In this document: one piece after another, positions 2-5,886 of the stretch
How the letters are laid out: every line of letters begins with the position of its first letter
How positions within the stretch are numbered: position 1 is the stretch's first letter
NCBI GenBank assembly: GCA_001797815.1
Contig: MGQK01000092.1
Coordinates: 49,038 to 54,924 of the forward strand
Direction of reading: 5' to 3'
Length of the DNA stretch: 5,887 bases
Origin: Deltaproteobacteria bacterium RBG_13_61_14
Lineage (GTDB): Bacteria > RBG-13-61-14
Notes under the pieces: model-generated
Told to the model about the DNA's origin: nothing
The model's input: the letters and a program-made list of their open reading frames with translations, nothing else
Databases searched by the model: none
Made by a program: the position numbers and the translations under genes

Positions 2-415
2 CTCGCCTGCAAGCTGGCCGCGAAATGGGCCTATGAGAAGGCCGGGATCACCAACCCCCGGAAAGAAATTGACTACGCGGAGATCTACGAACCCTTTGCC
101 CACCAGGAGATGATGTGGAGCGAGCGCCTGGGCCTGTTCGACGAGAACCAGGGGCCGGAGGCGCTGAAGAGCGGCCGGACCCAGATTGACGGGGATCTCC
201 CCATCAATGCCTCGGGCGGGGTGATCTCGACCAACGCCATCGGGGCCACGGCCATGATCCGGGTGGGCGAGGCGGCGCTCCAGATCATGGGCAAGGCCGG
301 CGAGCACCAGGTGCCGAAGAAAGTCAACCGGACGGTCTCGCACGGCTGGGGCGGCCTGTTCCAGTATGTGTGCGTGACCGTGCTCGGTTCGGAGCCGAGG
401 CATCGGGAAAAATAG
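2..415 (+). CDS. Thiolase-like (SCP-x type) protein, C-terminal part; 5' end outside window
   Basis: This is the last 137 residues of a thiolase-fold protein; the reading frame is open from base 2 to the TAG at 413-415. The C-terminal thiolase core is recognisable: an EPFAHQE segment at the place of the NEAF/HDCF loop, then INASGGVIS (residues 68-76), then IGAT (80-83), then SHGWGG (113-118) before the last beta strand. Canonical thiolases carry GHP before the GAT motif; here it reads TNA, with Asn78 at the catalytic histidine position. His114 stands where biosynthetic thiolases have the CxG cysteine. The nucleophile region is not in the window. The protein shares blocks such as FAHQE and AGEHQV with the thiolase-like gene at 1011, so they are paralogues. 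A DUF35 gene follows 46 bases downstream, the usual partner of this thiolase type (for example BbsA/BbsB of anaerobic toluene degradation). The substrate cannot be told; a C-C bond cleaving or forming acyl-CoA role is inferred. Confidence 0.85.
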   Translation, partial: LACKLAAKWAYEKAGITNPRKEIDYAEIYEPFAHQEMMWSERLGLFDENQGPEALKSGRTQIDGDLPINASGGVISTNAIGATAMIRVGEAALQIMGKAGEHQVPKKVNRTVSHGWGGLFQYVCVTVLGSEPRHREK

Positions 416-461: not shown

Positions 462-920
462 ATGAGCGAGAAGAAATTTTTCCGGGTCCCCAGTCTGGTG
501 ACCATGCCCTGCGCCTGGTCGGTGGGGCCGTTCCTGGACCGGTTTTACGCCGAGCTGGGCCAGAAGAAGATCGTGGGCACCCGCTGTCCGAAATGCCGGA
601 CCGTGTTCGTGCCGCCGCGCTCGGTGTGCGGCGCTTGCTGGAAGCCGCTGACCAAGTGGGTGGAGCTCAAGGACCAGGGCGAGCTCGTGAACTACACCGT
701 GGCCCACGTGGACATGCGCGGCGCCGCTTTGCAAACGCCCCGGATTCTGGGCATGGTCAAGCTCAAGGGCGGGGGGGCCAAGGTCACGGCCATCTACGGC
801 GAGATCAAGGGGGTAGCGCCGGACCGGGTCAAGGTGGGGATGAAGCTGGCCGCGGTCTGGGCCGATGAACCCAAGGGCGAGCTCACGGACTTGAGCTATT
901 TTCAGCCGGTGAGCAAATGA
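462..920 (+). CDS. DUF35 zinc-ribbon/OB-fold protein, partner of the upstream thiolase-like protein
   Basis: The 152-residue protein has the DUF35 architecture: an N-terminal helical stretch (about residues 20-37), a rubredoxin-like zinc ribbon with Cys42, Cys45, Cys56 and Cys59 (CPKC and CGAC), then an OB-fold from about residue 65 onward, with the VKVGMKL turn and a DLSYFQP tail. Members of this family bind thiolase-like enzymes and, in characterised complexes (BbsA with BbsB, ChsH2 with Ltp2, the archaeal thiolase/HMG-CoA synthase bridge), help hold the acyl-CoA or dock the partner. It has no catalytic motif of its own. AAGGAG at 447-452 lies 9 bases before the ATG, supporting this start. 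It is presumably cotranscribed with the thiolase-like gene 46 bases upstream. It resembles the second DUF35 protein at 2201 but is shorter at the N-terminus. The family is clear; the substrate is unknown. Confidence 0.9.
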   Translation: MSEKKFFRVPSLVTMPCAWSVGPFLDRFYAELGQKKIVGTRCPKCRTVFVPPRSVCGACWKPLTKWVELKDQGELVNYTVAHVDMRGAALQTPRILGMVKLKGGGAKVTAIYGEIKGVAPDRVKVGMKLAAVWADEPKGELTDLSYFQPVSK

Positions 921-1010: not shown

Positions 1011-2159
1011 ATGTTTGAACGCAAGGTGGCGATAGTGGGTTATGCCATGTCGGACCAGGCCGACCGGATTGAAGACACCCGGGAAGGCATGATCTTCGAC
1101 ACGGTGCGGGCGGCGCTCCTGCAGGCCGGCATCACCCGGGACCAGATCGGCACGGTGGTGATGTGCAGCAATGACTTTTACGACGGGCATACCATTTCCA
1201 ACGCGTTCACGGTGGAGCCGGCCGCGGCCTATGCCAAGGACGAGACCAAGGTGGAGCAGGACGGAATGCACGCGCTGCTCTACGCGGCGATGCGGCTGGC
1301 CTCGGGCAATTACGACGTGGCGCTGGTGGTGGCCCACAGCAAAGGCTCGGAGTTCGAGGCCCAGGTGGCGCTGTCCGCCCAGCTCGACCCGACCTACGAC
1401 CGGCAGTTCGGGTGGTTCAATGATATCTCCATGGCCGCGTTCCAGGCCCGGGCCTTTCTGGACAAGAAGAAGCTGCCGGAAGAGGTCCTGGCCCAGGTGG
1501 CGGCCAAGAACTTCGCCAACGCCCGGAAGAACCCCAAGGCCAAGGCCCGGGACTACTCGGCCGCGGCCGAGGCGATTGCCCGGTCCAAGCCGCTCTTCAC
1601 GCCCCTGCGGGAACAGACGGTGTATCCGGTGACCGACGGCTGCTGCGTGGCGGTGCTGGCGGCCGAGCCCAAGGCCAGGAAGATGAAGAACAAGCCGATC
1701 TGGATCAAGGGCATCGGTCACTGGCAGGAGGCCTATGCGCTCTCTGAGCGCGACCTGACCAAGATGGAATCGGCCAAGAAGGCGGCCAAGCGGGCCTACA
1801 AGATGGCGGGGGTGACCCAGCCGGCCGCGGAGATCAAGGTGGCGGAGCTCTCCGAGCATTTCGCCCACCAGGAGCTCCAGCTGGCCGAGGCGCTGGGATT
1901 GTGCGAGGGGACCTCTGCGGCCAAGAACCTGGAGGCCGGCCGCTTTGGTCTCAAGGGCAAGTTGCCGATCAACCCTTCGGGCGGGGCGCTCTCGGCCTGC
2001 GCGCTGGGCACGGTCGGGCTGGTCCGGGCGGTGGAAGCGGCCCAGCAGGTTTTGGGAGAAGCGGGGGAACACCAGGTCAAGGGCGTGAAGCTGGCCCTGG
2101 CCCATGGGCAATGTGGACCGGCTGCGCAAAATAATGTTGTTGCAGTCTTTGGAAAATGA
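1011..2159 (+). CDS. Thiolase-like protein lacking the canonical catalytic residues
   Basis: The 382-residue protein is full length for an SCP-x type thiolase. An N-terminal KVAIVGYA strand is followed by the nucleophile-loop region at about 80-99, a linker, and the C-terminal core with INPSGGALS (320-328) and the AHGQCG segment (364-369). Aligned by eye with acetoacetyl-CoA thiolases, where the nucleophile sits in a V-C-x-S-G-M motif 17 residues before the xGxxDV glycine, this protein reads V-E-Q-D-G-M, so Glu82 replaces the cysteine. The GHP histidine is Cys330 (ACALG), the CxG cysteine is His365, and the NEAF asparagine is Ser281. It is therefore unlikely to run normal thiolysis. A retro-aldol activity, or a structural or CoA-binding subunit of a hetero-complex, are alternatives. 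AGAGGAG (998-1004) six bases before ATG fixes the start. A DUF35 gene follows 41 bases later. The fold is sure; the reaction is not known. Confidence 0.88.
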   Translation: MFERKVAIVGYAMSDQADRIEDTREGMIFDTVRAALLQAGITRDQIGTVVMCSNDFYDGHTISNAFTVEPAAAYAKDETKVEQDGMHALLYAAMRLASGNYDVALVVAHSKGSEFEAQVALSAQLDPTYDRQFGWFNDISMAAFQARAFLDKKKLPEEVLAQVAAKNFANARKNPKAKARDYSAAAEAIARSKPLFTPLREQTVYPVTDGCCVAVLAAEPKARKMKNKPIWIKGIGHWQEAYALSERDLTKMESAKKAAKRAYKMAGVTQPAAEIKVAELSEHFAHQELQLAEALGLCEGTSAAKNLEAGRFGLKGKLPINPSGGALSACALGTVGLVRAVEAAQQVLGEAGEHQVKGVKLALAHGQCGPAAQNNVVAVFGK

Positions 2160-2200: not shown

Positions 2201-2671
2201 ATGGCTGAGGAAGAAAAGAAAGCGGCTGGCGAGACCAAGTCGGTCAAGGGCGCCTGGGACGTGAAATACCGGTGGACCTTCCGGCAGGACTTGATGGACC
2301 GCTATGTGGCCGGGCTTAAGGAGAAAAAGCTCTGGGGTACCAAGTGCCACCGGTGCGGCCGGGTCTATGTGCCGCCCAAGGACATCTGCGGCAAGTGCTT
2401 TGAGGAGATTGACGAGAACTGGGTGGAGGTGAAAGATCGGGCGGAGCTGGTCACGTACACGGTGGGCTATACCTCGATCACCGGTCAGCCTTACCCGGAG
2501 CCCCAGATCACCGGGACCGTCCGCTTCGAGGGTTCGGACTCCTGGGCCCTGGGTCCGATCCGGGGGCTCAAGCCCGAGGACATCAAGGTGGGGATGAAGT
2601 TGAAGGTGGTCTGGCGGGAGGAGACCAAGGGCCAGCTCAGCGACATCGAACATTACGCGCCGGCGGAGTGA
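2201..2671 (+). CDS. DUF35 zinc-ribbon/OB-fold protein, second copy
   Basis: The 156-residue protein has a charged N-terminal extension (residues 1-17), a helical segment (about 24-43), a zinc ribbon with Cys49, Cys52, Cys63 and Cys66 (CHRC and CGKC), and an OB-fold to the end with IKVGMKL and DIEHYAP matching the first DUF35 protein. Such proteins form a complex with thiolase-fold partners, here most likely the product of the gene ending 41 bases upstream. The start at 2201 is chosen because AGGAGG (2190-2195) lies 5 bases before it. An in-frame ATG at 2156 would overlap the upstream stop as ATGA, but it has no good ribosome site and would translate through the palindrome at 2161-2184. It is a paralogue of the DUF35 gene at 462, which supports duplication of a thiolase/DUF35 pair. 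Substrate unknown. Confidence 0.9.
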   Translation: MAEEEKKAAGETKSVKGAWDVKYRWTFRQDLMDRYVAGLKEKKLWGTKCHRCGRVYVPPKDICGKCFEEIDENWVEVKDRAELVTYTVGYTSITGQPYPEPQITGTVRFEGSDSWALGPIRGLKPEDIKVGMKLKVVWREETKGQLSDIEHYAPAE

Positions 2672-2967: not shown

Positions 2968-3540
2968 ATGGCACTGAAGGGAAGTAAGACCGAGAGGAAT
3001 CTTTTGACCGCGTTCGCCGGCGAGTCGCAGGCGCGGAACCGCTACACCTTTTTTGCGAGCGCGGCGCGCAAGGAGGGCTTGGAGCAGATCGGGCAGATCT
3101 TCGAGGAGACCGCGACCCAGGAAAAGGAGCATGCCAAGCGGTTCTTCAAATTGCTCGAAGGCGGGATGCTCGAGATCACCGGGACTTTCCCGGCCGGGGT
3201 GACCGGCAAGACCGCGGACAACTTGAAAGCGGCCGCGGAGGGCGAGAACCACGAGTGGGGCAAGATGTATCCGGACTTTGCCGAGGTCGCGGAGAAAGAG
3301 GGCTTCAAAGACGTGGCCCGGCTGTTCCGCGCCATCGCGGTGGCGGAGAAACAGCACGCCCGGCGCTACGAGGGCCTGCTCGCCAACGTGGAAAAGGGCA
3401 CGGTCTTCAAGAAGAAGGACCAGGTGAAGTGGCGGTGCCTGAACTGCGGCTACGTCCACGAGGGGGTGGAAGCGCCGAAAGTGTGTCCGGCCTGCGATCA
3501 TCCCCAGGCGTATTACGAGCTGTTGGCAGAGAATTGGTGA
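2968..3540 (+). CDS. rbr: Rubrerythrin
   Basis: Rubrerythrin is a cytoplasmic non-haem diiron peroxidase that reduces hydrogen peroxide to water with electrons from rubredoxin-type donors. The 190-residue protein has the standard length and order: a four-helix ferritin-like domain (about 1-145) and a C-terminal rubredoxin domain. The diiron ligands are all present: Glu19, Glu52 and His55 (EKEH), Glu93 and Glu96 (ENHE), Glu127 and His130 (EKQH). The rubredoxin iron is held by Cys157, Cys160, Cys173 and Cys176. AAGGA at 2954-2958 lies 9 bases before the ATG. The gene has its own promoter-like sequence at 2822-2850 and is followed by desulfoferrodoxin in the same direction, so peroxide and superoxide removal are probably co-expressed, with a possible PerR/Fur-type site at the promoter. 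Nothing is missing or truncated. Confidence 0.97.
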
Positions 3541-3541
3541 A

Positions 3542-3569
3542 CCCACCCTTCCCAAGGCTGAAGGGTGGG
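3542..3569. repeat. Stop-abutting hairpin repeat, copy 2 (CCCACCCTT / AAGGGTGGG)
   Basis: The arms at 3542-3550 and 3561-3569 are identical to those at 921-929 and 937-945. The loop differs (10 bases here). It begins one base after the rubrerythrin TGA and shares the GGGCTACAA right flank with copy 1. The two host genes are unrelated, so the similarity is not due to gene duplication. Confidence 0.85.
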
Positions 3570-3578
3570 CTACAAGTC

Positions 3579-3670: not shown

Positions 3671-4045
3671 ATGACGGAAAGACTGCAAATCTACAAGTGC
3701 GAGGTCTGCGGCAACATCGTGGAGCTGATGCACGAGGGCAAGGGCGAGTTGGTCTGCTGCGGCCAGCCGATGAAGCTGTTCCAGGAGAACACGGTGGACG
3801 CGACCAAGGAGAAGCACGTGCCGGTGCTCGAGAAGACCGCCAAGGGCTTCAAGGTGAAAGTCGGGAGCGTGGCGCACCCGATGGAAGAGAAGCATTACAT
3901 CGAGTGGGTGCAGGTGATCGCGGACGGCAAGGTTTACCGGCAGTTCTTGAAGCCGGGGGGGAAGCCGGAGGCGGAGTTCTGCATCCAGGCGGATCAGGTC
4001 GCGGCCCGGGAGTATTGCAATTTGCACGGGTTGTGGAAGGCATAA
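3671..4045 (+). CDS. dfx: Desulfoferrodoxin (superoxide reductase, 2Fe type)
   Basis: This cytoplasmic enzyme reduces superoxide to hydrogen peroxide without making oxygen, protecting anaerobes. The 124-residue protein is full length for the two-iron class. The N-terminal desulforedoxin domain binds centre I through Cys10, Cys13, Cys29 and Cys30. The catalytic centre II ligands are His49, His69, His75, Cys116 and His119, with the conserved Glu47-Lys48 pair before His49. These positions match those I know for the Desulfovibrio enzyme. AAGGAG at 3657-3662 lies 8 bases before the ATG. The peroxide produced would be the substrate of the rubrerythrin encoded 130 bases upstream, so the two genes form a functional pair, probably transcribed from the promoter at 2822-2850. 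I see no separate promoter in the hairpin-rich spacer. Confidence 0.97.
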
Positions 4046-5115: not shown

Positions 5116-5886
5116 TCAGGGAGGGCAGGGGTCGCCGGGCCGGAGGTTGCAATCGCTTAAGAGCCACTCTTGAGCCCGGGTCAGGGTTTCCCCGGTCAAC
5201 AGGGAGGGCAAAGCAGCCGCCACCGAGTTGTTCTGGGGAGTCGCCAAGGTGCCATTGTCCAGCCAGTCAATGGAGTCATAGATCAGGCGCTTGGCGTAAA
5301 CACTGTTATGAGCAAAACAACCCGGCTCGTTCCTCAGCATGTTCCAGTTAAACGCGGCGCCCATATTGTTCCTGCCAATGGAAGCGTTGCTCGCGCCATT
5401 GGTCCAGTCCCCCGCAGCAAAGTAAGGATACCCGCCCAGGTAAGGATGCCCGTTCAGGGCCAATTGAGCGGCCAGCGCCTCTAAACCCGCCTCAAAGCCT
5501 TCTTCCTCCTCGGTCAATTTCGCCACCGTCATCTCGCCGTGTTCCGGGGTATGGCAGAGAGCGCAGGCGGTGCTGGTGATGGCAGTGATGGTCTCACCCT
5601 CTGCGCTCACCGGCGAGAGGAGGTGTTCCTCGGGATTGGTGCTCAGGTGGCAGCCCACGCAGGGGCCGTTGGTGCCGGTGTCGGCAACCGTGCCCGAGCC
5701 GATTTCATCATGCTCGAAATAAAACACGTTGTTGTAATTCGCATCGGGACGATACTGATAGCCGATCTTCCGGAAGAGCACTCCGGCCGCGGCCAAGTAG
5801 TGGGCGTCCTGGAAACCCAGGTCGGTGAAGGGATCGGCCAGGTTCTGAATATAGCCGCCGCTGATCCGGCCGGCATGGCAGGTGAC
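5116..5886 (-). CDS. Multihaem c-type cytochrome, C-terminal part; 5' end outside window
   Basis: The frame is open from base 5886 to the TGA at 5118-5116, giving 256 residues of a larger exported protein. Two complete haem-binding motifs are CVGCH (76-80) and CALCH (108-112). The first residues, VTCH, look like the end of a third CxxCH cut by the window edge. His29, His59 and His88 are candidate distal ligands. The segment DAHYLAAAGVLFRKIGYQY (27-45) resembles linkers seen between haem sites in large deltaproteobacterial cytochromes. After the last haem come about 140 haem-free residues ending in CNLRPGDPCPP, where two further cysteines (not in CxxCH) may pair. Such proteins carry electrons in the periplasm or at the cell surface. 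TTG or ATG codons within this frame (such as the TTG at 5796) are not real starts, since coding continues upstream. The gene is convergent with the plus-strand genes. The partner and electron acceptor are unknown. Confidence 0.88.
   Translation of the reverse strand, partial: VTCHAGRISGGYIQNLADPFTDLGFQDAHYLAAAGVLFRKIGYQYRPDANYNNVFYFEHDEIGSGTVADTGTNGPCVGCHLSTNPEEHLLSPVSAEGETITAITSTACALCHTPEHGEMTVAKLTEEEEGFEAGLEALAAQLALNGHPYLGGYPYFAAGDWTNGASNASIGRNNMGAAFNWNMLRNEPGCFAHNSVYAKRLIYDSIDWLDNGTLATPQNNSVAAALPSLLTGETLTRAQEWLLSDCNLRPGDPCPP

Follow-up and report, generated by a model that had tools for sequence, protein, structure and literature searches.

The DNA analysed here, to which we refer as the window (5,887 nucleotides; G000:C92:49038-54924), encodes a protein that resembles a thiolase throughout its length and carries none of the canonical catalytic residues. 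We sought to determine what such a protein does. An earlier note on this DNA had offered three options: a retro-aldolase like Ltp2, a glutamate-dependent enzyme, or a non-catalytic subunit that binds CoA. The gene, which we call beta, is one of five beta genes in the host genome (4.74 Mb, 132 contigs); the phylum of the host is represented by three members in the collection that was searched.

The beta protein and its setting in the window

Beta is part of a four-gene module on the + strand with the order alpha-DUF35-beta-DUF35. The window opens with the 3' end (2..415, 137 aa) of a second thiolase-fold gene, alpha, the full gene of which lies on the same contig (G000:C92, locus L009:10230-11453). 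It is followed by a gene for a DUF35 protein with a zinc ribbon and an OB fold (462..920), by beta itself (1011..2159, 382 aa), and by a second DUF35 gene (2201..2671), whose frame is open from 2156 and whose ATG at 2201 is preceded by GGAGG. Both DUF35 assignments come from Pfam and from a tree that separates two types: the first protein is of the type usual upstream of beta, and the second of the type usual downstream of alpha. Upstream of the module are divergent genes that we take, from their sequence starts, to be rpsB, tsf, pyrH and frr-like. No BKACE or acyl-CoA synthetase neighbours were found within the window.

The remainder of the window holds several unrelated features. Downstream of the module are genes for rubrerythrin (2968-3540) and a two-domain desulfoferrodoxin (3671-4045), which together make up a defence against oxygen that is typically found in anaerobes. 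A palindromic intergenic repeat (CCACCCTT..AAGGGTGGGCTACAA) occurs at 919-955 and 3540-3577; it is dispersed over the genome in 17 copies, as against 0 for a reversed control pattern. An open frame on the - strand that runs off the window edge (5116-5886) contains two CxxCH motifs (CVGCH, CALCH), by which its product is possibly a multihaem cytochrome-like protein. A 615-codon frame antisense to beta (324-2171, -) is read as a by-product of high third-position GC.

The beta reading frame is intact. Its Pfam match to Thiolase_C_1 is strong (E 2.7e-31 over residues 242-381) and that to Thiolase_N is weak. The structure predicted by AlphaFold2 with 44 relatives is a full-length thiolase fold (mean pLDDT 91.8, pTM 0.93), and its best VIA match is the archaeal thiolase 6esq (Z 54.4, rmsd 1.6 Å, 374 residues), followed by BbsB (Z 48), Sal (45.8) and Ltp2 (45.1). 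Alpha and beta alike also match PhlC and MucABC closely in fold. At the level of curated families, beta scores 214.6 bits against NCBIfam PRK07937 (cut-off 419), the family of the plasmid Ltp4-type protein described below, and 70.6 bits against the BbsB family NF053628 (cut-off 750). The intact frame and, in the predicted model, the complete fold claimed earlier are borne out, as is the absence of every canonical catalytic residue. Canonical and SCP2-type thiolases have a nucleophilic Cys at the N-terminus of the third helix; the elbow of beta has no Cys, and SEHF (S281-E-H283 codons, 1851..1859) and SACAL (Cys330 codon, 1998..2000) stand in place of the HDCF/NEAF and GHP motifs. Neither does beta have the Tyr that occupies the HDCF His position in the Ltp2 and Sal aldolases, since Ser281 is found there. 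By its predicted structure, beta has the whole of the thiolase fold, but the active site of a thiolase is missing from it.

The earlier note had placed Glu82 (codon 1254-1256) at the nucleophilic cysteine, and this placement depends on how the elbow (E78-G85, 1242..1265) is aligned. From C85 to D105 in 6esq and from E82 to D102 in beta there are 20 residues each, so that the spacing from the helix to the xGxxDV motif is kept, as claimed, and in this ungapped helix register Glu82 equals the Cys. HMMER and MAFFT instead open a gap of three residues at the elbow, and E82 then pairs with the Glu of 'VEAAC', three before the Cys. The elbow of beta is three residues shorter, and Cys is absent at column 82 in 116/117 betas. 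The models have strand 77-81 and helix 85-97 in beta, and strand 78-81 and helix 84-100 in the partner alpha, which agrees with a nucleophile helix in beta that lacks its first turn. Asp84 (codon 1260-1262) immediately precedes the shortened helix in the predicted model, and would occupy the N-cap position, the usual helix-capping site.

Conservation in beta and in its partner alpha

A total of 117 beta relatives were collected, 81 through degenerate motifs and 36 by other routes. One of these motifs, KDE(S/T)KVE, was derived from five sequences; since it favours Glu82, the Glu82 statistics were repeated on the 36 betas found otherwise. In this motif-unbiased set the Glu82 column is mixed (E16/A12/S5), Glu being kept in one subclade. 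The Cys330 column is N23/H6/C2, most relatives having Asn, Asp or His, and the Ser281 column is S11/Y8/H6. His365 is retained in 26/36 unbiased betas and in 87/117 overall. When the 381 columns were ranked by conservation among the 117 betas, the residues singled out earlier came far down: His365 100th, Glu82 108th, Cys330 247th, Ser281 261st and His283 380th. Because of these low ranks, they mostly do not form a conserved catalytic set.

A different polar set is nearly invariant in beta: Asp84 (10th; 36/36 unbiased betas, 116/117 overall), Gln373 (11th), Asp55 (13th; 35/36 and 116/117), Arg247 (16th) and Gln346 (18th). Asp55 belongs to a signature, D55-xx-D58-G-H-T-I-S63 (1173..1199), in which D58 is kept in 104/117 and S63 in 106/117 betas, and which lies, by DSSP of the model, in the beta2-alpha2 loop after the second strand. 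The protein is therefore not in random decay, in agreement with the earlier note. Of the individual placements, Cys330 does sit at the GHP histidine but is peculiar to very few sequences. His365 does lie at the CxG cysteine, where a His is unexceptional, for the SCP2-type thiolase 6hsj has 'ALQHN' at this position. Ser281 had been matched to the NEAF asparagine; the relevant motif is the SCP2-type HDCF, whose His and Cys are replaced by S281 and H283. The orthologues to which the earlier note had looked for a check have other residues largely at Cys330 and Ser281 and partly at Glu82, and not at His365. Cys52 was also considered as the nucleophile and rejected: its column is A/C/V/S/T and lies 30 residues ahead of the elbow.

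The site of alpha is of another kind. All 106 alpha sequences have Gly at the nucleophile position, preceded by an invariant Thr82 (the window gene reads TTGGTTGG, in its part upstream of the window). The HDCF His is replaced by Tyr in 106/106 (EIYEPF in the window alpha), and the GHP His by Asn in all 105 readable sequences (STNAIG). Thus T82, G84, Y299 and N348 are invariant in alpha, whereas the matching columns of beta are variable. Alpha resembles the steroid aldolases Sal and Ltp2 in this: in Sal, Gly takes the place of the Cys and Tyr302 of YDCY is used, and Ltp2 uses Tyr294 of YDHF together with Tyr344 (PMC12329534). Counting residues from the motif puts Ltp2 Tyr344 and Sal Gln352 at the GHP His position, where alpha has Asn348. 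The column of the Sal acid Cys304 holds Pro, Gly or Ala in alpha, which leaves alpha alone without an obvious acid. The suggestion of an Ltp2-like retro-aldolase therefore suits the partner alpha, and not beta.

Pairing, distribution and known relatives

An alpha gene adjoins beta on the same strand in 103/117 cases, with a median gap of 3 bases. Of the remaining 14 betas, ten either are interrupted by the end of a contig or adjoin a mere fragment of alpha. One more is a truncated Rhodococcus gene with an adjacent alpha, and three are genuine exceptions (L106 and L107 in Leptospirales, and L011 in the host genome). The truncated protein, 304 aa on a Rhodococcus qingshengii plasmid, keeps D55xxDGR and D84; HDCF, NPSGG and the C-terminal motif could not be aligned in it. 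Its gene is adjoined by an intact alpha gene and by MaoC and acyl-CoA dehydrogenase genes. A shortened beta beside an intact alpha is as expected if alpha works and beta supports. The distance matrices of alpha and beta are correlated at r 0.908, with a maximum of 0.084 in 500 permutations, although shared descent would be expected to give much of this value. The pairing of alpha with beta, and the contrast between their conservation, are solid.

Two DUF35 proteins are encoded in most modules, the one in the window among them. The most frequent module orders are DUF35-beta-alpha-DUF35 (56) and beta-alpha-DUF35-DUF35 (23), and the window is the only case of alpha-DUF35-beta-DUF35 among the modules seen. 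Of 120 DUF35 proteins, 104 follow a division into two types, one upstream and one downstream. The 16 unsorted ones are downstream copies that belong to other modules, and both types are represented in the window by one protein each. The Sal complex is a DUF35-Sal-Sal-DUF35 tetramer, and by analogy two DUF35 types are the anatomy expected if each unlike subunit binds its own DUF35.

Modules occur in metagenome-assembled genomes (MAGs) labelled Dehalococcoidia, Anaerolineae, Actinobacteria, Deltaproteobacteria, Spirochaetes, Leptospirales, Elusimicrobia, Archaeoglobi, Asgard archaea and Methanolliviera. At a strict cut-off they were found in 13/386 broadly sampled genomes. Methanolliviera has twelve alpha/beta-type matches, six of which are strong betas. 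A divergent pair with the same anatomy is present in an Archaeoglobus MAG (L148:1040-3395, -), one member with the three-residue elbow deletion and the other with GGG and EPYDPF. It branches outside the alpha and beta clades, and is possibly an early form of the alpha/beta split.

The closest known kin are the actinobacterial Ltp3-Ltp4 proteins, which likewise combine two adjacent Cys-less thiolase-fold genes with DUF35. Ltp3 and Ltp4 of R. rhodochrous have been studied. A Tsukamurella plasmid carries, in order, a double-DUF35 gene, a gene for a 359-aa protein that scores 593 bits to the lipid-transfer protein family PRK07937 (cut-off 419) and a gene for a 390-aa protein that scores 734 bits to PRK08313 (cut-off 514). 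Their naming as Ltp4-type and Ltp3-type rests on these NCBIfam families, on gene order and on the M. tuberculosis locus Rv3521-Rv3523, which we take as a guide. In an IQ-TREE phylogeny the Ltp4-type protein nests in the beta clade and the Ltp3-type protein in the alpha clade (UFBoot: alpha 100, alpha plus beta 96, beta a moderate 74). The systems nevertheless differ. The window and related modules have two separate DUF35 genes in place of one double gene; beta and an alpha relative (371 bits against the PRK08313 cut-off) score below the family cut-offs; and no steroid genes were seen near the modules, whose hosts are mostly anaerobes and archaea. In a published account, Ltp3-Ltp4 is a heteromeric aldol-lyase that acts on C24-branched sterol side chains, and the carboxylate must then be converted back to a thioester (PMC6678751). 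In M. neoaurum, ltp3 and ltp4 deletions left one C22-sterol route running.

Other relatives share only parts of this anatomy. Ltp2-ChsH2 and Sal-Shy, in which ChsH2 and Shy are the DUF35 partners, have the thiolase fold, no nucleophilic Cys and, like alpha, a Tyr at the base position (PMC12329534), but they are homodimers of one active subunit, whereas the module has two unlike subunits. Moreover, most betas have no Tyr, and alpha has Asn for Tyr344/Gln352 and Pro or Gly for Cys304/His296. BbsAB, the benzoylsuccinyl-CoA thiolase, and 6esq belong to the fold clade with DUF35 and are closest in overall fold (Z 48-54), yet 6esq retains Cys85, HDCF and GHA, and beta falls far below the BbsB family cut-off. 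No description of the four-gene module was found in the literature on thiolase, DUF35 and Archaeoglobus or on Ltp3/Ltp4 and DUF35, a body that included few subscription papers.

A proposed supporting subunit and its alternatives

On balance, we favour a reading in which beta is the non-catalytic partner of alpha in a heteromeric complex that binds DUF35 and resembles the retro-aldolases. Of the three options offered, a non-catalytic subunit fits best. An inactive thiolase-fold partner with DUF35 would have a precedent in PhlABC, an acyltransferase of two thiolase-superfamily proteins, one of which is described as inactive (PMC2954200). This precedent also feeds a competing view, in which the module would carry out condensation or acyl transfer in the manner of PhlABC/MucABC, or decarboxylation, in place of retro-aldol cleavage. 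PhlC and MucABC match both subunits closely in fold, and weak decarboxylation of malonyl-CoA is known from the Cys-less relative TbSLP (PMC12329534). However, PhlC, the active protein of its system, is an enzyme with a Cys (the PDB includes a C88S variant of the close homologue CsATase), both alpha and beta are without the nucleophilic Cys, and the alpha site equals that of Ltp2 and Sal at the Tyr position. We consider this view unlikely, though the least unlikely of the alternatives. Beta might also be catalytic itself, or both subunits might have different working sites, through Asp84 and Asp55 instead of Glu82. These residues are as conserved as the alpha site, and Arg247, Gln346 and Gln373 are nearly invariant too. 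Asp84, on the other hand, directly precedes the helix start at 85, a usual capping position, and the HDCF and GHP columns, which hold acid-base groups across the thiolase superfamily, are variable in beta and invariant in alpha. A catalytic beta is accordingly somewhat less probable still.

A stand-alone enzyme with Glu82, Cys330 and His365 as a new catalytic set would be consistent with the intact frame and complete fold, with Glu82 being kept in one subclade and with the frequency of His365. With Glu82 in 16/36 and Cys330 in 2/36 unbiased betas, Ser281 and His283 variable, and an alpha gene nearly always adjoining, this proposal of a Glu-dependent enzyme is very improbable and is not supported by the comparison. 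An ordinary thiolase that lost its residues through sequencing or assembly error could be imagined from the fragmented assembly and from a short N run in the neighbouring alpha; it is refuted by the 117 relatives from many independent genomes that likewise have no Cys.

The favoured non-catalytic partner could have arisen as follows. The ancestor would have been a thiolase-like homodimer bound to DUF35, its nucleophilic Cys already gone, and a duplication would have given rise to alpha and beta. Alpha would have retained the aldolase-like site, in which Gly in place of the Cys would leave an open pocket, Tyr299 is the proposed base, and Asn348 stands where Ltp2 has the acid Tyr344 and Sal has Gln352. 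Beta would have lost one turn of the nucleophile helix while its own pocket drifted, keeping D55, D58, D84, E78 and K80 in segments at or near the subunit interface of thiolase-fold dimers. Two different DUF35 proteins would then cap the two unlike subunits, and the complex would most likely perform retro-aldol cleavage of a beta-hydroxyacyl-CoA, as reported for Ltp3-Ltp4. The four-gene module probably cuts carbon chains that are beyond the reach of ordinary thiolases.

Beta may also contribute to the alpha site in trans. In Sal, the beta2-alpha2 loops of both protomers part the two pockets at the dimer centre, and OleA Glu117 and FabH Phe87, each some 25 residues ahead of the Cys, presumably extend into the site of the opposite subunit; D55 of beta lies at the same distance. 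Given this loop position and spacing, a contribution in trans by D55xxD58 of beta is plausible. Our certainty is greatest for the physical complex, lower for the aldolase chemistry and lowest for this contribution.

The neighbour genes suggest what might happen to the product. Acyl-CoA synthetase genes were found beside modules at 25 loci and unfused BKACE genes at 19, archaeal and bacterial. In ten genomes, 4/21 BKACE genes lie less than 5 kb from a module, whereas about 0.2-0.3 would be expected by our estimate from the fraction of the sequence that is covered. Beta-keto acids are the compounds that BKACE enzymes cleave, and together with acyl-CoA synthetase such neighbours suggest that a free acid is made or used beside the complex. 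DUF35 domains are also fused to BKACE (L154:8103-9512, directly downstream of a beta-alpha-DUF35 module in a Spirochaetes MAG, G066), to AMP-binding enzymes (L109, L114, L160) and to SCP2 domains (L154, L155, L159, L160). One such gene adjoining an alpha-beta pair (L160:624-3386, -) encodes a 921-aa protein that combines an acyl-CoA synthetase, two SCP2-like domains and DUF35. A route that starts with carboxylation of the branch, as for sitosterol, was ruled out as general, because the carboxyltransferase PF01039 (E 1e-20) was not found in 4/10 module-bearing genomes. More speculatively, the site could be a composite one: the Asp55/Asp58 loop of beta would extend across the dimer and supply the acid-base group missing from alpha, an HMG-CoA-lyase-like reaction would release an acyl-CoA and a free beta-keto acid, and the thioester would be restored by the BKACE or acyl-CoA synthetase encoded nearby, in some cases tethered by a DUF35 fusion. 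Taken as a whole, this composite scheme has a rather low probability.

Genes of this kind are annotated only as 'thiolase domain-containing protein' and would normally be grouped with the thiolases of beta-oxidation. Should they encode heteromeric aldolases in which one subunit is dead, several genes in each genome would be misassigned when pathways are reconstructed for Asgard archaea and for anaerobes that degrade alkanes and fatty acids; the host genome has five beta genes and Methanolliviera six strong beta-type matches. The composite site, if real, would mean a separate branched-chain route in anaerobic bacteria and also in archaea, among them the Asgard archaea and Methanolliviera. The module is a defined four-gene set for expression and assay and, if our reading is true, would show how a homodimeric enzyme splits into a catalytic and a supporting subunit.
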